26,596 bases of DNA, from IMG/VR virus record IMGVR_UViG_3300042554_001348, positions 1 through 26,596 of that record; one strand, given 5' to 3'. Both the position numbers and the translations under genes were made by a program. The stretch comes from a virus. Below are positions 1-26,596 of this stretch, piece after piece; position 1 is the first letter of the stretch; every line of letters begins with the position of its first letter. The notes under the pieces were generated by a model, which was not told the DNA's origin, did not search any database, and worked only from the letters and a program-made list of their open reading frames with translations.

Positions 1-961
1 GTAAGGTACTAGGGATTCCAAGAAGTAAAAGATTCCCCTCTTTGGCGATTTCCCGCCGCTGAATTAGGGGGCCAAGTATGTCGCCTGTAAGTGGGTTTTC
101 GATGACGTTGCTACCATTGACAATCACTGGCGGCTTGTCAGGATCGGCAAGACTGCCTACAAAATTTAGTATAACAGATCCTTCGTTTTCTCCCAAAACA
201 TCCTTTTGGACTGCATAGCTGCCTTGGAAAAACGGAATGGAGCCTGGGAGTAGAGTTTTGTATCCGACTGCGGGGATAAACTTGTCAAAGGTTTCAAAGT
301 TCGTCTCAAACGTGTAGGTCATCTTAAAGTAATAGAAACACACGCCATACAGGATTCGCTCCCATTTGCAGTCCGTGAATCGCACGCATCGTTTCGGGAG
401 TCCCCAAAGTGGGGCATCATTTACCTTGTTAATCAGCAAATTGATAAGACTGATAGGCAGGGTGGCCGAATTAAAAGACAATGTAATTGCTGGATAGCTG
501 ATCTTTTCTTCGACTTCCGGCCCGATCATCGGCTCATAGTTTACATGCAGAAGCGGCTTACCGTTACGGTCGGTCTTTTGTTCGCGGCTGACATGGACGA
601 AATCCCCAGAGATAGCTACTGGCTCTAGCAAGGGGTTTTCGATCTGAGTATCGTTACAACGAAACATGGGCTTCGTTGTAAACTTTGAGTTCACCAGCCA
701 ATCGGCGCAGGGATCGCCTTCCCGAATATCCCGGTGCGGCGCAATAGTAAGTTCGGGTGTACGGAATGCCCAGGGATCATAGTCGTTGCCTTCGACATAG
801 GCACTACCTATGGGATGAAGGGTATTGACCATCTGCAAGACGGTTTCGGGGCCGTCCAGGTAGTCGTCGGTTCGGTAGTGCCAAGTCAGATCGTATGTAC
901 GATGTCCTTCGTCATCCCGATCCATTGTCTGATTTTTCAAACCGATTAGATATGCGGTCAT
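1..961 (-). CDS. Tail-tip-position protein, partial (3' end beyond window)
   Basis: An open frame starts with ATG at 961 and stays open for 320 codons to the left edge without a stop, so the gene is truncated by the window. The start overlaps the tape measure stop as ATGA, which supports this start and translational coupling. The protein begins MTAYLIGLKNQTMDRDDEGH. It is mixed alpha/beta in composition, with no signal peptide and no clear membrane segment. I do not recognise the family from sequence. Its place directly after the tape measure is where siphophages encode the distal tail or tail-tip (baseplate hub) proteins, so a tail-tip structural role is inferred from order only. The antisense frame at 734-949 is a shadow of this gene. 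Confidence 0.8.
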   Translation of the reverse strand, partial: MTAYLIGLKNQTMDRDDEGHRTYDLTWHYRTDDYLDGPETVLQMVNTLHPIGSAYVEGNDYDPWAFRTPELTIAPHRDIREGDPCADWLVNSKFTTKPMFRCNDTQIENPLLEPVAISGDFVHVSREQKTDRNGKPLLHVNYEPMIGPEVEEKISYPAITLSFNSATLPISLINLLINKVNDAPLWGLPKRCVRFTDCKWERILYGVCFYYFKMTYTFETNFETFDKFIPAVGYKTLLPGSIPFFQGSYAVQKDVLGENEGSVILNFVGSLADPDKPPVIVNGSNVIENPLTGDILGPLIQRREIAKEGNLLLLGIPSTL

Positions 962-3900
962 GGTGTTGACAATCCCGAGGCAGTAAGGTTTACTTGACTG
1001 TTTATAGTATTTTTGACAATTTGACCCAGTAAGGTATTTGTCAGTACCAGTTGAGCGACTGTCGGAGATTGGCTAGCCGCACCCCCGGCACGCATTTGCC
1101 GAACACGTTCTGCTTGCTCAGCAGCCTTCTTGGAGTAGTCGCTGCTGTACATAGACATTGCATCGGATGCTTTATATGTTACACCACCAGCAAGAAGACC
1201 TTTGCCGTACTGTCCTTGGTATTTAGCAGCTTTAGGATCTTCCGGCTTTGGCGGCCCCATTTCTTCGGTGCCCCGTTTGATCGTCTGCATAACATCGGCC
1301 ATCTCGGTTTTGATGGTTCCGATGCGACTATCAAAGGCGTTTGTGGCCTCTGCATCAGCCTTTTCTCTTGCTTTGGTCGTTAGATCCGCTTCATTTTGAA
1401 TTATCTTACCCATTCCTTGAGCGTGATCCATGCGACCTTTATTTGCTTCTTCGGCGGCCACCGCACGTTCTAGCATCAATGTACGCAATTCTTCTTCGCG
1501 GGTGATTCGCCGTTGTTGTACATCTGCATTTAACTTGTCAATTTCTTTATTGTAATCTACGCTGCTGCTAAAGAAACTCTTAATGTACAACCATTTACCT
1601 TGAATATAGGAAACTACATCGTCCCACATATTTTGTATCATAACAATAACATGGCTGAATGTATTTTGCATTACAACACCCGCCACTGCCAAAGCATTTA
1701 CAACACGAACAAACCCTATGCCTGTGTTTATGGCAAGCGAGCTATACATATTCGTCCAGGCATTCAAAAACCCGGTAATAAAGCCGCGACCAATGCCATA
1801 CACTTCTCTTAGTCCGACTCTAAATGCTAATTCCAGTCCTAGCATGGCTAATGTTCCGGCCTCTTGAAACTGACCTTGTAGCAAGGCTTTAGTAATACCT
1901 TGAATAACAGGAATCACAATGCCTTTTAATTCCTCAAACTTGCCGCCCAGAAATCCTAACATTTCCGAACCCATACCGCTGAAATATATAATCGCACCAG
2001 TGGCGAGAGCTATACCTGCTATTACCAAACCAATCGGAGACATCAAAAATGCTAAAGCGCTTCCGATCATACCGATGATAGGAACAATGGAAGCAAACAG
2101 CATCTTAATAGGAAGCAGTACAACCGATAAACCCTTCAACGTCGAAAACGCAGATGCTAACCACCAGCGAATAACAGCTACGGCCATACCCATAGAATGA
2201 AAAGCTAGGATGCCGATTACTGCCAACTTAATTATACGCGCAAGTTGTTGGACCGTTTCATAGTTGTTCGGGTCGTCAAACCATTTAGAAATAGCTTGCG
2301 CCAAGTCTAAAGCCTTCTTCAAGGCTTTTTCAATATCGCTTTTCATCGCATTGAAGATGTCCAGGCCCATCTTTTGCAGCAATTCTTTAAGCTGGTTTAT
2401 CATGCCTCCGATGCTTTTATTCATCTTTTCGGCCATGTTTGCAAAACGGCCACCAGCGGAAGTTTCTGCTTTTAGCGCCTCTACAACGTCTTTGGACGTA
2501 ATCAAACCGGCTTCCTTGGCTTTGTTGACACGCTGCATGGCTTGTTCCATCGTTTCATTGCCTCTGCGTGTTTGCTCGGCAATGGTTACAAGTGGGTTGA
2601 AACCTTGCTCGGTCAACTGCCGCAATTCATTACCTTGCAGTTTGCCCATCGAAGTGATCTGGGACATAGCAAACATAAGCAAATCAAGACGCTGTTGGCT
2701 TCCACCAGCTACATCTCCCAGCATCTTCATATTTGCGATTGTATCTTTAGCCGACTGGCCGTAAGCCATCATATTTCTAGCAGCGCTCGCCAGTTGCAAT
2801 GTCTGGTAAGGAGACGCCATCGCATACGTCTGAATTTCCTTCATAATCGCAGCAGCTTGTGCAGCAGATCCAGTAAAGGCTTGGATGGCTACTTGGTTTT
2901 GTTCAAAACCGATAGCCATATCCAATATGCCTTTGGAGTGCTGTGTAACCGAACGAATAGCATTGGCGTGCATGTAGATATCGGCACGCGCGGTCAATCC
3001 ACCACCTAATCCACTCGACCCTGCGCCTGATTTAGATCGCGATTTTGCATCTCGTTCGGATTGTTTTTGTAATTTGTCTTGTTCTGCTTTGACTCTTTTG
3101 GCTTCTCGGATCTTTTTATCGGCTGTTTCTTTTGCGTCCCGTTGTTCTTTCTTTTGTTGTTCTTCTAGTATTTTGGAGTTGTATTTGACCATTTTAATGT
3201 ATTCATCGTTTTTGGTCTTTTTAGCGGCTGCTAATTCCTTATCGTTTTTCTCTTGTTGCAATTTCGCCTTGTCTAGCTCTTTGAGGTACGCATTGTTTGA
3301 TTTTTCCCGTTGAGCAGCTAATTCTCGTTCCTGCTTTGCCCGATCTTTGGACTGCATGGACGATAATTGCTGTCTGTTAGGCCCGTGCATAGCGCCAGGA
3401 GGTAGGTTAGCCGACGATTGCTTACCTCCTAATAAAGCATTAATATCAGAAAAAGCACTTCTGGCACTAGCAGCAGCCGTGTTAGCGGCGTTGGCTATTC
3501 CGAGGTAGGCTTCGCCTACCGAGACAATCTTCGGCTTTGCTTCGCCCATTGCTGAGTTTATATCAGTATAAACACTTCGTACTCTGCTACTATTTGTGGC
3601 AGTTGTATTGGCAGCGTTGCTTAGTCCGAGGTAGGCTTCACCTACCGATACAATCTTAGGCTTGACTTCGCCTAATAAACCGTTTATATCAGCGTAGACG
3701 CTGCGTACTCGGCGGCTGCTTGCAGCCGCCGTATTTGCGGCGTTGCTTAGTCCGAGGTAGGCTTCGCCTACCGAGACAACCTTAGGCTTTGCTTCCCCTA
3801 ACGCTGTATTTATATCAGCGTAGACGCTGCGTACTCGGCGGCTGCTTGCAGCCGCCGTGTTTGCGGCGTTGCTTAGTCCGAGGTAGGCTTCGCCTACCGA

Positions 3901-4365
3901 GACGACTTTTTTCTCAGCTTCCCCCAACGATAGATTTATGTCAGCGTAGACGCTGCGTACTCGGCGGCTGCTTGCAGCCGCCGTGTTTGCGGCGTTGCTT
4001 AGTCCGAGGTAGGCTTCGCCTACCGAGACAACCTTAGGCTTTGCTTCCCCTAGTAAACCGTTTATGTCAGCGTAGACGCTGCGTACTCGGCGGCTGCTTG
4101 CAGCCGCCGTATTTGCGGCGTTGCTTAGTCCGAGGTAGGCTTCGCTAAGCGATACAACCTTTGTAACAGTGCCGCCTAATAAGCTATCAACATTAGTATA
4201 CACTGCCCGCATTTTACGGGCAGTAGCAATAGCGCCAGATACCGGTGCTTGTAAACTGCTTAATGAATCAGACGCATCTTTAACGGCGTCGTTGACAGTT
4301 TTGGTAAGGCCAGACGAATCCCCGAGTATCTTCACTCGCAGCGGCGGAAGTTCTCTTTCAGACAT
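958..4365 (-). CDS. Tail tape measure protein with 42-residue N-terminal repeats
   Basis: A protein of 1135 residues, the longest in the tail module, placed right after the chaperones as expected for a tape measure. Residues 72-281 are five 42-residue tandem units (typical text SVGEAYLGLSNAANTAAASS), flanked by degenerate units at about 36-71 and 282-314. Residues about 336-444 are a Lys/Glu/Gln-rich predicted coiled coil. Residues about 458-680 resemble the phage tape measure domain, with the conserved region around MSQITSMGKLQGNELRQLTE. Residues about 720-850 are strongly hydrophobic (several potential membrane segments), typical of tape measures that take part in DNA entry. It sets tail length and sits inside the tail tube. 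ATG at 4365 lies 6 bases after the upstream stop. Confidence 0.93.
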   Translation of the reverse strand: MSERELPPLRVKILGDSSGLTKTVNDAVKDASDSLSSLQAPVSGAIATARKMRAVYTNVDSLLGGTVTKVVSLSEAYLGLSNAANTAAASSRRVRSVYADINGLLGEAKPKVVSVGEAYLGLSNAANTAAASSRRVRSVYADINLSLGEAEKKVVSVGEAYLGLSNAANTAAASSRRVRSVYADINTALGEAKPKVVSVGEAYLGLSNAANTAAASSRRVRSVYADINGLLGEVKPKIVSVGEAYLGLSNAANTTATNSSRVRSVYTDINSAMGEAKPKIVSVGEAYLGIANAANTAAASARSAFSDINALLGGKQSSANLPPGAMHGPNRQQLSSMQSKDRAKQERELAAQREKSNNAYLKELDKAKLQQEKNDKELAAAKKTKNDEYIKMVKYNSKILEEQQKKEQRDAKETADKKIREAKRVKAEQDKLQKQSERDAKSRSKSGAGSSGLGGGLTARADIYMHANAIRSVTQHSKGILDMAIGFEQNQVAIQAFTGSAAQAAAIMKEIQTYAMASPYQTLQLASAARNMMAYGQSAKDTIANMKMLGDVAGGSQQRLDLLMFAMSQITSMGKLQGNELRQLTEQGFNPLVTIAEQTRRGNETMEQAMQRVNKAKEAGLITSKDVVEALKAETSAGGRFANMAEKMNKSIGGMINQLKELLQKMGLDIFNAMKSDIEKALKKALDLAQAISKWFDDPNNYETVQQLARIIKLAVIGILAFHSMGMAVAVIRWWLASAFSTLKGLSVVLLPIKMLFASIVPIIGMIGSALAFLMSPIGLVIAGIALATGAIIYFSGMGSEMLGFLGGKFEELKGIVIPVIQGITKALLQGQFQEAGTLAMLGLELAFRVGLREVYGIGRGFITGFLNAWTNMYSSLAINTGIGFVRVVNALAVAGVVMQNTFSHVIVMIQNMWDDVVSYIQGKWLYIKSFFSSSVDYNKEIDKLNADVQQRRITREEELRTLMLERAVAAEEANKGRMDHAQGMGKIIQNEADLTTKAREKADAEATNAFDSRIGTIKTEMADVMQTIKRGTEEMGPPKPEDPKAAKYQGQYGKGLLAGGVTYKASDAMSMYSSDYSKKAAEQAERVRQMRAGGAASQSPTVAQLVLTNTLLGQIVKNTINSQVNLTASGLSTP
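3424..4152 (-). repeat. 126-bp in-frame tandem repeat inside the tape measure gene
   Basis: Five consecutive 126-bp units (4152-3523) plus a shortened unit (3522-3424). The unit is exactly 42 codons, so copy-number change keeps the frame. The copies encoding residues 72-239 are nearly identical in DNA, while the outer copies have diverged, which suggests recent expansion from the middle. Four units carry a palindrome with 10-bp arms (CGGCGGCTGC, 2-base loop) at 3710-3731, 3836-3857, 3962-3983 and 4088-4109. A second hairpin, GGTAGGC-TTC-GCCTACC, recurs in most units. Confidence 0.95.
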
Positions 4366-4371
4366 CTTAGA

Positions 4372-4686
4372 TTACTCCGGGGTTATTCCAAAAATAGACA
4401 GCCAAACTGACTTGCTATCTGTGGCCTTATCGGCTTCGGATGCAGGTGCTTCAAATTTGAGCAAGTGATCCTCGATCTTTGTTTTTGCTCCCTGGGAAGC
4501 AAAAATGGCCTGCATCGTTGCCGCAGCATACCAGTCTGATTTGTCCCTGTGATTCCGACGCATTGTGAAATACGTCTGCCAGTTATCAAATTCAGACACC
4601 GTGGTAAGTTGCTTGACCAACGACACAGGCCATCCGAGTTCATGCGACAAGTGATACCAAAGGTATTCCTCATCGCTGAGTGTTAG
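4372..4686 (-). CDS. Tail assembly chaperone T-like extension, made by -1 frameshift
   Basis: This frame is open from the slippery site at 4686-4692 to a TAA at 4372-4374 and adds 104 residues to the 119-residue upstream chaperone, giving a fused product of about 223 residues. The joined text reads LTLSDEEYLWYHLSHELGWP just after the slip, and the frame has no good ATG of its own near its 5' end (a TTG at 4650 is the only early candidate). The arrangement matches the lambda G/GT type in which a short chaperone and a frameshifted longer form are both needed to load the tape measure for tail tube assembly. It lies directly before the tape measure gene. The end of the frame is 6 bases from the tape measure ATG. 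Confidence 0.85.
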   Translation of the reverse strand, partial: LTLSDEEYLWYHLSHELGWPVSLVKQLTTVSEFDNWQTYFTMRRNHRDKSDWYAAATMQAIFASQGAKTKIEDHLLKFEAPASEADKATDSKSVWLSIFGITPE

Positions 4687-5042
4687 TTTTTTTCGTCGCC
4701 CTCGTCGTCGCCAAGTTTGTTCAACTTCCTGGCGATTTCAAACATGGCCCGTTGAGCGCCGTCCGGCCAATCCTGAATCTTCGACTCTGGCAACGCCTTT
4801 CCTTCTGTGTCATAGACGCAGAACGAAAGCAACGTGCTATACAGGCCCTTGTAGTCTTTGATCCCGACAACCTCACCAGTGTTTTGGTCTACCCGGCTAC
4901 GCTGTGACGTCTTGTTGAAATACTCGTCGCGCTGTGCGCCGGTCATTTCCTTTACAAAGACCTTTACAACATTGCCATCGGCATCCATTTCCAGTTCGAC
5001 TGGCTGGGATTTCCGAACTACCGAAATCTTCATCGCTTCCAT
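4683..5042 (-). CDS. Tail assembly chaperone G-like
   Basis: A 119-residue protein between the tail tube gene and the tape measure, the usual position of the tail assembly chaperone. It begins MEAMKISVVRKSQPVELEMD and ends in an acidic stretch LGDDEGDEKN. The last sense codons form A AAA AAC in the correct phase for -1 slippage, immediately before the TAA stop. ATG at 5042 follows a GAGGG at about 9 bases; a second ATG three codons later is possible. It is expected to coat the tape measure during tail assembly and to be absent from mature tails. It is the first gene after the strong terminator that follows the tail tube gene, so its level is probably lower than that of the tube. Confidence 0.82.
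   Translation of the reverse strand: MEAMKISVVRKSQPVELEMDADGNVVKVFVKEMTGAQRDEYFNKTSQRSRVDQNTGEVVGIKDYKGLYSTLLSFCVYDTEGKALPESKIQDWPDGAQRAMFEIARKLNKLGDDEGDEKN
4686..4692 (-). promoter_or_regulatory. -1 programmed frameshift slippery heptamer A AAA AAC
   Basis: On the minus strand the chaperone frame ends GAC GAA AAA AAC TAA. The heptamer A AAA AAC fits the X XXY YYZ rule in the zero frame. A one-base backward slip moves ribosomes past the stop into a frame that stays open for 104 codons. The first base of the zero-frame codons is 2 modulo 3 and that of the extension is 0 modulo 3, which is exactly the -1 relation on this strand. I did not identify a convincing downstream pseudoknot. Confidence 0.85.
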
Positions 5043-5113: not shown

Positions 5114-5578
5114 TTAAGGCGCAACTGTAGTCGTAGTCGTAGTAGCAGTGGTTCCCACTGTGAATACCGGTGCGACTTCGGCTGGCGTTGCTGCTGTGGA
5201 CAAGTTGCTTGGCTCCAATTCCAAGGTAGCTTCTGGTCGTTCGCCTTCCTTCAAAGCATCTTGGGTGAACTTGCTGACGATGGCGTAGAACACCAAAGTA
5301 CAACCGTCTGGGAAGGTAATCGTGATCGCTCGGTTTGTGCCGAGGATGTTGATGACCTGACCGTAAACCCGAGAGTCGTAGGCGACTTTGATCGAAACAG
5401 TGTCAAGCGAAACCAGGGCCTTACCGAGCTTGGTTCGGTAGCGGCTATTTCGCATGGTGGTTTGATCGATAGCCCCGCCCGAATCCAAGCCTGGAGGCGT
5501 TACTTCGATTTCTTCAAACAATGCCGTGATCCCGGAAATGGAGATCAGGGTCTTGTAACCGTCTTTCAGTAGCGGCAT
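5114..5578 (-). CDS. Major tail tube protein
   Basis: A 154-residue protein beginning MPLLKDGYKTLISISGITAL, placed after the tail terminator-like gene and before the chaperones, where siphophages encode the tail tube. Its core (to about residue 130) has the alternating beta-rich pattern of tube proteins, for example a segment ITITFPDGCTLVFYAIVSKF. The C-terminus is a low-complexity Ala/Thr tail (TVGTTATTTTTTVAP). No sheath gene lies nearby, so the tail is probably non-contractile. ATG at 5578 follows GGAG by 9 bases, and the gene is followed by a strong terminator, consistent with high expression. The function rests on gene order and general features rather than a diagnostic motif. Confidence 0.78.
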   Translation of the reverse strand: MPLLKDGYKTLISISGITALFEEIEVTPPGLDSGGAIDQTTMRNSRYRTKLGKALVSLDTVSIKVAYDSRVYGQVINILGTNRAITITFPDGCTLVFYAIVSKFTQDALKEGERPEATLELEPSNLSTAATPAEVAPVFTVGTTATTTTTTVAP

Positions 5579-7118: not shown

Positions 7119-9254
7119 TTATCCTACGATACTTCCGAGAGCCGCTGTGTTACCAGCAGTGGTTGGAACTTGTACAGTGAACTTTCGGGACGATCCGGTT
7201 CGGTAGACGATGTACGTTGCACCTTTGATAAGGTTGCTGAACTGGACTACCCCGTTGTTGTCGGCGGTACCGGTTCGTACAGCGTCTTCCATGACGATTC
7301 CAGTGCTTCCGACCGGCGGGGCCGAGGCTTGCAAGGAAACCTGGGCACCGGCCTGTACCGTACCGTTGACGTTGTAGACAACCCAGTAACCCGTGCAGAA
7401 AGGAGGGTCGCTTGGCGTTACACCGCCCCCGGCAGCCGTCATCGTGTATGTCTGGGTGACATTGCCACTGACAACCAAGGAAACCGGGGAGAAGCTGAAA
7501 TTGGTTGCTGTGATAGCCACGGTCCAGGTAGCATCGTCGATGCTGAACGTCGCCAAGCCGGAAGCATTGGTTTGCAGTACATACGCCTCGCCCGTGCGAG
7601 AGATGCGAACTGTGGCGTTTTGGATCGGGTTAGCCGAGGCATCGCGGACAGTGATAGCCACGGTCCTAGCACCTGATCCACCGATATTGGTAAGGGAATT
7701 TACCTCTGTCAGAATATCCTGTGCCGTTGCTTCCAAGGCCAGCGGGGCGACTGCCGAGGAAATCGCGGCTGCAAGCAGCGATTGGTCTGCTGGATCGCTT
7801 GGCAGGTTATCCGTCTTGGCCTTGATTGCGGCGACATTATCCCAGTCTTCGGCTGGATCATTATGGGCTGGCATCATTACATAGGCAGAAGTGGTATCTG
7901 GTACGACAGCCCATTGTCCATTTGCCGTATGCGTCTTAATCGTTGCCACCTTGGTAGAACCTACATAATCGGTGACTACGGCAAGCTGATCTTGACCCGT
8001 TCCTGACCGGATGAAGACTATTTGGCCGTTGTAGCAATCGTCTACGCTGCTTGCCGAGGCATTCAGCGTAATCGTGGTGGATGTTCCGGCTTGTGCCAGC
8101 CCTTCGTTGACCGAATCGCGGCCAGGATTGCCGATAAGGACAAACTCGGAAGTATTATCTGGGTTGACACGCCAATCGCGGTCAACTGTGGCCGTCTTGG
8201 TAGTGCCGTTGTACTGGAGAATCAAGCGGCATTGACCGGCACCAGTCCCAGCTTCGATGAATACCAATCCTGGGTCGTAGATGCCGTTTGTGGCAGATGC
8301 GCCCGCATCGAACTGGATCTGGTTATTGCCGGTTCCTGCGCCTTGGGCCGTGCCGGACCAGATAATCGAGGCTGCGACTTGTCGCAAGCGGCGACCTGCC
8401 GAGCCTGCGAGGTTGTAGGTCGCGCCGGACAGGATCGCATTCCAGACCGCATCGCGGTTCTGGTTGGCGGTTGGGATATCGGTAACGGCGGCTGGATTAG
8501 CCGGGAGATTGTCTGTCTTGGCTTTGATAGCCGCCACTTCGGTATCGATATAACCGGCGATGGTTGCCAACGTGCTGTTGACCGTAGCGAACGATGCAGC
8601 AATATCGCTGGCGTCTGCGGGGTCAACCGGAAGGTTATCCGTTTTTGCTTTAATAGCCGCTACCTCGGTATCAACATAGCCGGTCAGCGTATTGACCAGC
8701 CCGGTGAGGCTGGAGAAGCTGGCAGCGATGTCGCTAGCATCGGCTGGATCGACAGGGAGGTTGTCTGTCTTAGCCTTAATAGCGGCGACTTCGGTATCGA
8801 CGTAGGTAGCGAGCGTATCGACGCTGGTTTGTGTTGACGCAGTTTTGGCCGCATCGTAGGCTGAGGTTAGCGTAAGAGCATCGGTTACGTTCTTGATTGT
8901 GGTGTTGCTGAGGTTTACCGTAGCTGTGGCATTGGTGATCTTGGACTGGTCAGTACCAGCATACCCAGATACGTTGCTAGCCGAGGTGATTACGGTACGT
9001 CCATCACCAATGCAGGAAGATTTGAAAATGACTACGCTGAATGACTCTGCATTAGTCTCAGCTTGAGTTGGGGTATAGCTCCAGAAGCCACTGGTAGCAT
9101 CTGCTGCAAGCGTACCGGATGCTGCTGTCCAAGCAGCAGTTCCGATTTGAACCCGTGCTGAGACACCAGTAGTTTGTACCGTACCATCTGCGATTAGGAC
9201 AACCTGACCGACAACGAATGGTGGTGGAGATGCTGCATTGCGTGGATAGCTCAT
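7119..9254 (-). CDS. Fibre-like virion protein with AAIKAKTDNLP repeats and a carboxypeptidase-regulatory-like domain
   Basis: I chose ATG at 9254, which makes an ATGA overlap with the LamG gene (711 residues); an upstream TTG at 9296 would add 14 residues. The N-terminus MSYPRNAASPPPFVVGQVVL opens a region of beta-rich, Ser/Thr/Ala-rich text. Four copies of a linker VAAIKAKTDNLPxxPA occur, the first two followed by DASDIAASF. Two central beta segments carry matching motifs (GQ/AGTGAGQCRLILQYNGTTK and RSGTGQDQLAVVTDYVGSTK). Near residues 540-610 is an Ig-like carboxypeptidase-regulatory domain (VRDASANPIQNATVRISRTG). It is probably a tail or head appendage that contacts the host or surface glycans. 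No enzyme motif is visible. Confidence 0.78.
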   Translation of the reverse strand: MSYPRNAASPPPFVVGQVVLIADGTVQTTGVSARVQIGTAAWTAASGTLAADATSGFWSYTPTQAETNAESFSVVIFKSSCIGDGRTVITSASNVSGYAGTDQSKITNATATVNLSNTTIKNVTDALTLTSAYDAAKTASTQTSVDTLATYVDTEVAAIKAKTDNLPVDPADASDIAASFSSLTGLVNTLTGYVDTEVAAIKAKTDNLPVDPADASDIAASFATVNSTLATIAGYIDTEVAAIKAKTDNLPANPAAVTDIPTANQNRDAVWNAILSGATYNLAGSAGRRLRQVAASIIWSGTAQGAGTGNNQIQFDAGASATNGIYDPGLVFIEAGTGAGQCRLILQYNGTTKTATVDRDWRVNPDNTSEFVLIGNPGRDSVNEGLAQAGTSTTITLNASASSVDDCYNGQIVFIRSGTGQDQLAVVTDYVGSTKVATIKTHTANGQWAVVPDTTSAYVMMPAHNDPAEDWDNVAAIKAKTDNLPSDPADQSLLAAAISSAVAPLALEATAQDILTEVNSLTNIGGSGARTVAITVRDASANPIQNATVRISRTGEAYVLQTNASGLATFSIDDATWTVAITATNFSFSPVSLVVSGNVTQTYTMTAAGGGVTPSDPPFCTGYWVVYNVNGTVQAGAQVSLQASAPPVGSTGIVMEDAVRTGTADNNGVVQFSNLIKGATYIVYRTGSSRKFTVQVPTTAGNTAALGSIVG

Positions 9255-12200
9255 TGTATTCCCGATCCTAACATTAAGGGTCGTCGTCTGTACCAAGCAC
9301 CTTTGAATCCACCAGTGTTAATGGTTTCTGTGCCGAGTATGTATCGTTCTCGTTGTGGTCTGAATCCGTAGCCTCTGCCACCGAGGTACAAGGCTCGGAC
9401 TTCCTGGGCTGTTAAGGCACGGTTGTAAATACGAAGGTCGTCGATTCGACCATCTACAGAGTATTCAAAACCGCTGAAACCTAATCTACCAATTCTTGCG
9501 TTAGCTACCGAGGCTGTGGGAGTGATGCTTACTGCCGATTCGCCTTCTTGCGACCCGTTATAATAAACCTTTGCTGTTTGTCCGTCCCATGTACCGCAAA
9601 CAAAAATCCACATATTAGTTGGTAATGTCGTTGTTCCTGTTGCCGCATAGTCGCTTACTTGAAAAAAATTGAATGTTATTTTTTGAGTAGGCCCTTGCCC
9701 CAAATAGTATGCACCATTATTCGTATCTCTATTTCCATGTATAAAAAGAATTTGACGTTTTACTGAGCTATAACTCGGGTAGGTTCTATTAAAAACCCAT
9801 GCACAAACTGTCACCTTATTTCCAAGTGTAGGTAATGCAAATTTATTGCTATTTGTTGCTACTAGCACTTCGTTAGACTTGCTTACAGTTCCATCGAAAT
9901 CCAAAGCACCAAGTCCACCAGATGTAACCCAATCGGTATTGGGGTCCATATTAGTCAACGTACCGTGGTTCTTATACGGTGACTTGTCCTCTAGTCGTAA
10001 TCCAGTAGGTCCAAGGCTAGGTATCCAGGCACCTACAAGACCTTGCTTTAGCTTGCTGGTATCAACTGCTGGTTTTGGTTTGGCTGGTACTGGTGCATCG
10101 ACGTAGATGGTTTTCTTAGATGTAGTACGCTTGGCTGGAGTTAGACCGTATCCGCGACCACCAACGTAGAGTTGATTGATTTCTTGGGGGGTTAATGCAC
10201 GGTTGTAGATGCGAATGTCGTCGAGTCGAATTGCATTGTATTCGCCTAATACACCCGGACCACTCGTTGATTGCTGACCGGCGTAATTCGCTGCAATTGC
10301 TATACCAACGGAAGTATCTGGCGTGCTACTTAGTGCTGGAGGGGTGAACGATTCTTCCCGTCCATCCCAACCTAAACGAACAATCGGTGAGGAAATTGAA
10401 CCGTCAATGGTCCATGTTAAAAAGTTCAAACGTCCTAGAGTTGGAACGACTGAATATGCGACACGAGTGTACGTTCCGTCTGATTTAGAGCAATAATAGG
10501 AAAACTCTCCGGTCCCATAACCCGCCAATTTAATTAACCGATGGCTTGTAATTTTTGAGTATTGAGTAAACAGCGATCCGTTTGCACCGCTTGATTTTAG
10601 ACACCAAGCGGTAATCGTCATTGGTACTTGCAAAGATGAAAGAGGGTTGACGATTGGTAGCGTTATCGCATCATTCACCCCATCGAAATCCAAGGCACCT
10701 TTACCTCCACTGGTAATCCAATCGGTGTTTGGGTCCATATTGGTAAGGACACCATCATTGTTACGGCCACTAACATCTCTCAACCGTGTTCCGGTTGGAC
10801 CTAGACTTGGGCACCATGCACCAACAAGTCCAGTGGTTAGGGTGTTCTTCTTCTTGGGTTTGCGTATGCTGATCTTGTTTAGGTTGGGGCTTGGGTCGGT
10901 GTAACCGACTTTGATACGCTGCTGCTTTAGTCCATAGCCTCGGCCACCTTGGTATAGTTGGTTAATCTCTTGACCTGTTAATGCACGTTCATATACCCTA
11001 GCATCGTCCCATTGTGTTCCGGTAAATGATGTCGCTCCTAATGTTCCTCTGAACAGCCCTGCGATAGCAAAACAATTAACTGTAGTAACACCACCACCAA
11101 TTGTGTTGAGATTAGCGATTCTGACACCGTTTTGCCAAAGACTCAGGTATCCTGCCCTATCTCGAACAGCTACAAGGTGTCTCCAGTTTGATGTTGACCA
11201 TGAGCCACCTGCTACAGAGGCATCACCACCAGCATCGCTACGATTGAAAATTGAAAGATTATTTGTACCGCTTCTGCTAACTATTAACCAAGAGCTTGTG
11301 CTTGTTTGACTGGATAATCCTGCGAGAGTAGCACCTGCCCCTGATACTGTGCCAGTATGCCAAAAAGAATAACTCACTGGTTGTGCAGTAAGCTCAAGAC
11401 TCTTTGATAACCGCATCACACAGATGTCATCTGTTCCGTCACAATCTAACGCCAGCTTCCCGCCACTCGGAATGTAGTCCGTATTGGCATCCATATTAGT
11501 CAGGACACCGTGGTTATTACGACCAGATACGTCGAGTAGCCTAGTGCCATTAGCACCAAGACTAGGACACCAAGCACCGACTAAGCCATTGAGTAGTGTG
11601 TTGTTCTTGCGTGGCTTGCGTCTGACTGGGTTGGATGATGGCCGAGGTATCGTAACGCCTTGGAAGGATCGTCGTCGTGGTGGTTCGCGGAGCATACCAA
11701 CGCCACGCCCGCCGGTGTAGAGAAATTGGATTTCGGATGGTGTTAAAATTCTATTCCATATACGAATGTCATCTGATTGCCCATTCATTGGGAATGTACT
11801 AACTGTTGGATACATTTTTGCGATAAAAATACTGTTTGTTCCATTGTCTGCGTCTACGCCCCCGTTTCCAGTCCCGGCGTATCTTGTCATGCTCAGCCAC
11901 CCTGTTTCGGGTGAAGCTACATATAAATTATTTGCCGTAGATGAGTTTCCAAAATGTGTTGCTGTAAAAAAATACCAACGATTAAACACGATCGTGTTTG
12001 TCGTTCCGATGGAACCGTTACCCCCATTATTTGTAAAAAACGAAAAACCACCCAATGGAGGGCCGAATCCAGAATTTAACCCAACCCAAAATTGCCTTGC
12101 GGTACTAGATGCTTTAGCTGCACAAGTATGCCAACCTGTTTGGCTTTTGTAGTTAAACCAACCACTGATAGAAAATCCAGCATCTGTTAATGGTATTTTT

Positions 12201-12424
12201 GAACCAAGGTCAACATAATCATCCGTGTTATCGAAATCCAAAGCCAGCCCGCTTCCACTAGCAACCCAGTCCGTACCTGGGTCCATATTGGTGAGCGTGC
12301 CATGATTGCCGTAACCACTAATGTCAGCTAATTGCAAACCAGTAGCACCAGTGAATGATGGACACCATGCACCTACGAGTCCTTCACCCATCCATTCGCT
12401 ATCTCGTTCCCAATAGGCAATCAT
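9251..12424 (-). CDS. Four-unit LamG/concanavalin A-like lectin-fold virion protein
   Basis: A 1057-residue protein built from four LamG-like jelly-roll units at about residues 16-245, 280-499, 532-760 and 795-1020. Each opens with GLVGAW(C/I)PS, then G.LTNMD..TDW and ALDFDG, and closes with DDIRIYNRALT...INQLY.GGRGYG. Units are joined by Lys/Arg-rich linkers such as RKPKKKNTLTTGLVGAW. LamG3-type domains bind glycans or proteins, so a role in adsorption or capsid/tail decoration is inferred. No signal peptide or membrane segment is seen. ATG at 12424 overlaps the upstream stop as TAATG and the 3' end overlaps the next gene by ATGA, so it is co-translated with the fibre-like gene. Confidence 0.88.
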   Translation of the reverse strand: MIAYWERDSEWMGEGLVGAWCPSFTGATGLQLADISGYGNHGTLTNMDPGTDWVASGSGLALDFDNTDDYVDLGSKIPLTDAGFSISGWFNYKSQTGWHTCAAKASSTARQFWVGLNSGFGPPLGGFSFFTNNGGNGSIGTTNTIVFNRWYFFTATHFGNSSTANNLYVASPETGWLSMTRYAGTGNGGVDADNGTNSIFIAKMYPTVSTFPMNGQSDDIRIWNRILTPSEIQFLYTGGRGVGMLREPPRRRSFQGVTIPRPSSNPVRRKPRKNNTLLNGLVGAWCPSLGANGTRLLDVSGRNNHGVLTNMDANTDYIPSGGKLALDCDGTDDICVMRLSKSLELTAQPVSYSFWHTGTVSGAGATLAGLSSQTSTSSWLIVSRSGTNNLSIFNRSDAGGDASVAGGSWSTSNWRHLVAVRDRAGYLSLWQNGVRIANLNTIGGGVTTVNCFAIAGLFRGTLGATSFTGTQWDDARVYERALTGQEINQLYQGGRGYGLKQQRIKVGYTDPSPNLNKISIRKPKKKNTLTTGLVGAWCPSLGPTGTRLRDVSGRNNDGVLTNMDPNTDWITSGGKGALDFDGVNDAITLPIVNPLSSLQVPMTITAWCLKSSGANGSLFTQYSKITSHRLIKLAGYGTGEFSYYCSKSDGTYTRVAYSVVPTLGRLNFLTWTIDGSISSPIVRLGWDGREESFTPPALSSTPDTSVGIAIAANYAGQQSTSGPGVLGEYNAIRLDDIRIYNRALTPQEINQLYVGGRGYGLTPAKRTTSKKTIYVDAPVPAKPKPAVDTSKLKQGLVGAWIPSLGPTGLRLEDKSPYKNHGTLTNMDPNTDWVTSGGLGALDFDGTVSKSNEVLVATNSNKFALPTLGNKVTVCAWVFNRTYPSYSSVKRQILFIHGNRDTNNGAYYLGQGPTQKITFNFFQVSDYAATGTTTLPTNMWIFVCGTWDGQTAKVYYNGSQEGESAVSITPTASVANARIGRLGFSGFEYSVDGRIDDLRIYNRALTAQEVRALYLGGRGYGFRPQRERYILGTETINTGGFKGAWYRRRPLMLGSGIQ

Positions 12425-26335: not shown

Positions 26336-26470
26336 GAAATTTATAAAAATTTTGCGCGTAGCTTGCCACCCCAGCCACCCCCTCGTCCGGGGGGATAGGT
26401 GCCCCGCGAAGGTGACCCCCTCCCCAGGGGGGTTAGCGTCCGATAATGTTTGTTATGTTCGGCTTGCAAT
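26328..26470. other. AT-rich tract and C/G-rich hairpins, non-coding
   Basis: A strongly AT-rich tract (about 26330-26352, TTTTTGAAATTTATAAAAAT) is followed by two GC hairpins: CCCCC (26378-26382) with GGGGGG (26389-26394), and CCCCCT (26416-26421) with AGGGGG (26426-26431). I see no gene. AT-rich next to repeats recalls replication origins, but no initiator gene or standard DnaA box was identified. Confidence 0.6.
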
Positions 26471-26596
26471 GCTAGCACGGAGATGCTGCTAGCACGGAGA
26501 TGCTGCTAGCACGGAGATGCTGCTAGCACGGAGATGCTGCTAGCACGGAGATGCTGCTAGCACGGAGATGCTGCTAGCACGGAGATGCTGCTAGCA
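26471..26596. repeat. 17-bp tandem array at the window end
   Basis: The unit GCTAGCACGGAGATGCT repeats exactly, without spacers, for 7 copies plus 7 bases, ending at the window edge. Every frame on both strands meets TAG, so it is non-coding. At each unit junction TGCTAGCA is a perfect palindrome, and CTAGCA can pair with TGCTAG of the next unit. True array length is unknown because the window ends inside it. Confidence 0.97.

Follow-up and report, generated by a model that had tools for sequence, protein, structure and literature searches.

A minus-strand locus of an uncultivated tailed virus of microbes holds two overlapping tail chaperone frames that very probably form a lambda-type G/GT cassette, in which a downstream stem-loop most likely promotes the -1 slip, possibly together with an upstream Shine-Dalgarno-like (SD-like) GAGGG. 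The DNA that we analyzed, hereafter the window, is an IMG/VR virus record of 26,596 bases. Our assignment of a lambda-type G/GT -1 frameshift follows from three results: the slippery heptamer is conserved in phase, the T half belongs to Phage_tail_T, and the G half is predicted to fold like the tail assembly chaperone in PDB entry 2OB9. Overall, this is an ordinary kind of frameshift with a slightly unusual signal.

Gene order and the slip site

The structural genes on the minus strand are arranged in the order terminase, portal, capsid, connectors, tail terminator, probable tube protein, G, T and tape measure. The probable major tail (tube) protein (5114-5578, minus strand) is encoded directly upstream of G, in the position of lambda V, and is weakly assigned (Phage_TTP_12, E=0.035; phrog_41, E=0.25). 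The tape measure protein of 1135 aa (958-4365, minus strand) matches PF20155 TMP_3 (E=2.8e-20) and several phrog tape-measure families. Between these two genes the G and T frames overlap, T being -1 relative to G.

G encodes a G-like tail assembly chaperone of 119 aa (4683-5042, minus strand) with an ATG start and a TAA stop (4683-4685). A first-pass annotation had placed A AAA AAC right before this TAA in the phase for -1 slippage, and the G frame indeed ends GAC GAA AAA AAC TAA, with the heptamer A_AAA_AAC at 4686-4692 (minus strand) adjoining the stop codon. It had also described a -1 frame open for 104 codons and ending 6 nt before the tape measure ATG; we found that this T-like extension (4372-4686, minus strand) runs from the C at 4686 to a TAA at 4372-4374 and that the ATG begins at 4365, so all of the coordinates hold. 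The -1 frame begins LTLSDEEYLWYHLSHELG (its start is also given as LTLSDEEYLWYHLSHELGWPVSLVKQL), and the predicted G-T fusion product is 223 aa long.

In-phase A_AAA_AAN occurs only once among the 8,267 codons of the 31 predicted genes of the window, in which the remaining X_XXY_YYZ heptamers amount to 16 occurrences altogether. Because this is the sole occurrence and every relative found likewise has such a heptamer in phase (see below), the site is not a matter of chance. Nor is its spelling imposed by codon bias, since in the window AAA is used for 205 of 433 Lys and AAC for 229 of 392 Asn.

Other features of the window were also observed. The tape measure gene contains a 126-bp tandem repeat at 3470-4161 (minus strand; 5.5 copies, 84% match), corresponding to 42-aa repeats near the N-terminus, which could be a route to stepwise change of tail length. 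Upstream on the same strand, a frame at 9251-12424 encodes a structural protein of 1057 aa with four tandem Laminin_G_3 (ConA-like lectin) domains and overlaps by 46 bp the next gene (7119-9296, minus strand), whose product has repeated AIKAKTDNLPxDPAD segments and weak Ig-like and carboxypeptidase-regulatory-like matches and is possibly a tail or fibre component. The end of the record falls within a perfect 17-bp tandem array of 7.5 copies (26470-26596), which might reflect either the limit of the assembly or a repeat between genes.

Conservation of the heptamer and identity of the two halves

IMG/VR scans that used the T half or alignments built from it yielded 42 viral loci, and tblastn yielded two relatives among annotated phages, Burkholderia phages KS9 and Bcep176. 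The G half gave no match by tblastn against 50,697 phage records, and neither of two scans across bacterial and archaeal genomes detected a relative. All T-half relatives found, the 42 loci and the two Burkholderia phages, carry an in-phase A_AAA_AA(C/G/A) with the same two frames and the same -1 sense. The first-pass annotation had suggested that related phages be compared for conservation of the heptamer and for a fused protein, and both expectations were borne out: the in-phase heptamer was present in every one of these relatives, and KS9 and Bcep176 are annotated with a joined CDS, the frames of Bcep176 being labelled 'lambda G equivalent' and 'lambda T equivalent'.

A_AAA_AAC is the heptamer in most relatives; A_AAA_AAG was found in L023, L028, L029, L030, L032, L033, L039 and Bcep176, and A_AAA_AAA in L031, L040-L043, L047 and KS9. 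The heptamer lies directly before the G stop in the window and in L004, L005, L012, L019 and L037, one codon earlier in L010, L016, L024, L025 and others, and 7 to 11 codons before the stop in L047, KS9 and Bcep176, and its phase is preserved at every shifted position.

The T half matches the Pfam family Phage_tail_T (PF06223, E=1.4e-6) with 29.1 bits against a cutoff of 25.9, as do all members of the T alignment (17/17), which makes it a homologue of lambda gpT. The G half is related to known tail assembly chaperones both by sequence and by predicted fold: it matches phrog_344, tail assembly chaperone (E=1.8e-4), as do 14 of 18 relatives, and the best PDB match of its AlphaFold model (pLDDT 77) is the HK97 tail assembly chaperone 2OB9 (prob 1.00, E=1.7e-3, a moderate TM of 0.50-0.59), with no other match close. 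The T-half model, whose pLDDT of 73 is mediocre, matched no solved structure. Together with the order G, T, tape measure, these assignments agree with the lambda G/GT arrangement recognized in the first-pass annotation.

Three explanations that dispense with ribosomal slippage can be considered. If T were a separate gene with its own start within or just past the overlap, a candidate would be the TTG at 4648-4650, which opens a T-frame ORF of 92 aa and has a counterpart at the same place in L004. However, initiation at this TTG would delete the conserved EEYLWY segment (an annotation without the -1 join likewise drops this start of T), the TTG is absent in L005, L010, L012, L016, L019, L024, L025 and L037, and the in-phase heptamer in all relatives would be left unexplained. 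Across 19 junctions, no ATG, GTG or TTG start is conserved in the T frame between positions -30 and +57 relative to the heptamer, and we consider a separately initiated T very improbable. RNA polymerase might instead slip on the A run, the fusion then being made from edited mRNA, and the window does have a run of seven A at the site (4687-4693). Many relatives, however, have only six A with the frame offset unchanged, the bacterial cases reviewed occur on stretches of about nine A or T (PMC5009743), and the junctions have three ribosomal features, namely a heptamer in codon phase, a stem spaced by 5-9 nt and an SD-like element, leaving this possibility scarcely credible. Runs of seven A are also prone to indel errors, so that a homopolymer error in sequencing or assembly, or a broken gene, might be suspected. 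Against this, independent contigs have the same frame offset, as do dozens of diverged relatives, of which several combine six A with a changed junction. Because L002 and L003, near-identical contigs from other metagenomes, share the seven A beside a synonymous difference, and because so many relatives keep the offset with six A, we regard an error as having a negligible chance. Programmed ribosomal slippage thus very probably accounts for the junction.

Elements flanking the heptamer

The junction had been described initially as a simple site with no evident pseudoknot, a description that we found misleading since GAGGG (4699-4703, minus strand) and a two-tier stem-loop (4640-4679, minus strand) flank the heptamer, 6 nt upstream and 6 nt downstream, respectively. 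In the window, the stem-loop has an energy of -18.8 kcal/mol and consists of an outer stem, UCA+GCGAUGAG/CUUGUCGC+UGA with a bulged A, and an inner stem, AUACC-UUU-GGUAU; its z was -4.7 against dinucleotide shuffles and -3.2 against synonymous recoding. Such a stem-loop was formed in 10/10 sampled junctions of the A_AAA_AAC group (the window, L004, L005, L010, L012, L016, L019, L024, L025 and L037), with spacers of 3-9 nt, and in all ten it was more stable than after synonymous recoding (z -2.2 to -4.1, mean about -3.5). As the sequences are related, they do not count as ten separate tests, the number of distinct outer stems being roughly four or five. When the whole G-T region of the ten was scanned, the extreme segment began 12 nt downstream of the first base of the heptamer, with a mean of -16.7 kcal/mol and a z of -3.5, and the runner-up places away from the junction stood near -2.5. 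Against dinucleotide shuffles, the mean z was -3.7 for these ten versus -0.5 for 12 other junctions. The structure is therefore non-random.

The inner stem in the group is GUACC-UUU-GGUAC, from which that of the window differs by a two-sided change. Outer stems vary yet all pair, as in L005 (CGCCAG/CUGGCG), L012 (CUCGAAAGCGAG/CUCGCUUUCGAG) and L037 (GGUGACGAG/CUCG-UCACC). Counted in a fixed register, 43% of outer-stem cells were paired and covariation was weak to modest, and this low pairing arises because the register of the outer stem shifts by one or two bases between lineages; the case for the outer stem is built on the energies of individual sequences, compared with two types of null, and not on covariation. 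Rfam gave no match to the window at gathering thresholds, and the junction region had a match at chance level only. By the same tests, the stem-loop was not significant in L023, L030, L032, L040 and L043, which have A_AAA_AAG or A_AAA_AAA, was marginal in L031 and L039, and was not found in KS9, Bcep176, L044, L046 and L047. The link between heptamer type and stem-loop is imperfect, since L044 and L046 have A_AAA_AAC without the stem-loop, and it is confounded by phylogeny, the tree having many open forks. In L031 (A_AAA_AAA at 2992-2998) we also saw a different stem-loop of 10 bp just downstream of the heptamer, which was not significant against synonymous recoding.

For the upstream element, pairing was scored with an assumed E. 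coli anti-SD core, which may differ from that of the host. The pairing energy peaked sharply 3-8 nt upstream of the heptamer, with a mean of -5.98 kcal/mol at 6 nt across 28 junctions. In a non-redundant set of 22 junctions, the window included, the mean best duplex energy was -6.24 kcal/mol, as compared with -1.66 at matched positions elsewhere in the G genes (reached in 0/20,000 resamples) and -4.32 after synonymous recoding of the junctions (pooled, p=0.0003). The element is thus non-random, and as the recoded value falls between the other two, the signal stems partly from the amino acids of the acidic linker and partly from codon choice. For the window junction alone, the score was not better than that of synonymous recoding (p=0.56). 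The position of the element is conserved, at 6-7 nt from the heptamer and 10-11 nt from the second codon of the heptamer. GAGGG is not a start signal for T, because the T frame has no ATG, GTG or TTG behind it at a distance suited to initiation. Its effect on slippage is uncertain, since it is about 4 nt nearer to the heptamer than the AGGGAG of dnaX (6 nt versus 10 nt by the same count) and SD-like -1 stimulators are reviewed as being located 9-14 nt upstream (PMC5009743). The strongest SD-like elements that we found, GGAGG in KS9 (L035) and Bcep176 (L036), at -9.5 and -10.3 kcal/mol, occur where there is no downstream stem-loop.

The frameshift may be real while the stem-loop and the SD-like motif are non-stimulating by-products of the protein sequence, namely EYLWY and the acidic linker; this bears only on the stimulatory part of our explanation. 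The acidic D/E/G linker by itself gives about -4.3 kcal/mol of anti-SD pairing, in that pairing the window on its own does not exceed its recoded versions, the Tyr-Leu-Trp-Tyr codons favour the inner stem, and the relatives with AAG or AAA heptamers largely go without the outer stem. On the other hand, recoding that preserved the amino acids gave less stable structures than all 10 junctions of the AAC group, the outer stems pair despite sequence differences between lineages, and the SD-like energy surpasses synonymous recoding when the junctions are pooled. We consider the by-product explanation unlikely, although it deserves real weight, and favour stimulation, most likely by the stem-loop and possibly by GAGGG.

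Comparison with known frameshift systems

The original survey of G-T frameshifts is reportedly that of Xu et al. 2004. In lambda, the tape measure protein binds both G and the G portion of GT, T recruits the tube subunit, and the G:GT ratio, which is 30:1, matters (PMC5009743). By analogy, the majority of ribosomes in the present virus would stop at the TAA after A_AAA_AAC and release the 119-aa chaperone G, and a minority would move back by one base at the heptamer and produce the 223-aa G-T fusion; G would coat the tape measure protein, the T part would recruit the tail tube protein, and slippage would set the G:GT ratio, which is presumably what matters. As to efficiency, frameshifting in HK97-like tail chaperone genes has been measured at 6-7% (PMC3711429).

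The cassette is like that of lambda in its order (tube, G, T by a -1 shift, tape measure), in the membership of T in Phage_tail_T and in a heptanucleotide slip shortly before the G stop. It differs in that the lambda heptamer is G_GGA_AAG, whereas here A_AAA_AAC is followed directly by the stop codon, and in that the lambda site, by the same tests, has neither an SD-like element (-2.1 kcal/mol) nor a stem-loop (z +0.7). The closest annotated relatives of T, with 27-30% identity and a joined CDS, are KS9 (gp11/12) and Bcep176 (gp69/69'), Stanholtvirus. Like the window, they have an SD-like element, a strong GGAGG, upstream of the heptamer (A_AAA_AAA in KS9, A_AAA_AAG in Bcep176), but in them the heptamer precedes the G stop by 11 codons and the downstream stem-loop is absent by the test used. 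HK97 gp13/gp14 shares the G fold (2OB9) and an annotated -1 frameshift, although its likely heptamer is G_GGA_AAA and sequence identity is low, at 14-15%.

SD-like stimulators and stem-loops are used by dnaX and many IS elements (PMC5009743, PMC3711429, PMC4066793). The E. coli dnaX signal resembles the present one in its SD-like element, its A_AAA_AA(G/C) heptamer, its short spacer and its stem-loop (-18.7 versus -18.8 kcal/mol), which here also lies a few nucleotides downstream of the heptamer (by 6 nt in the window and by 3-9 nt across the group). It is unlike the present signal in that its SD-like element is placed further upstream, its heptamer ends in G, and its shift shortens the protein, whereas the G-T shift lengthens the product. 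In E. coli, A_AAA_AAG is reported to shift far more readily than either A_AAA_AAC or A_AAA_AAA (PMC5009743), and so the stem-loop may compensate for a weak heptamer. We propose tentatively, at somewhat less than even confidence, that one group of uncultivated tailed phages has gained at its G/GT shift a dnaX-like composite signal, consisting of an SD-like element, the weak A_AAA_AAC and a conserved stem-loop, and that the stimulator may offset the weaker heptamer and keep the G:GT ratio, the relatives with A_AAA_AAG or A_AAA_AAA being mostly without the stem-loop. These related sites, whose heptamers differ in reported strength and which have or lack the stem-loop, form a natural series bearing on how a phage holds its chaperone ratio constant.
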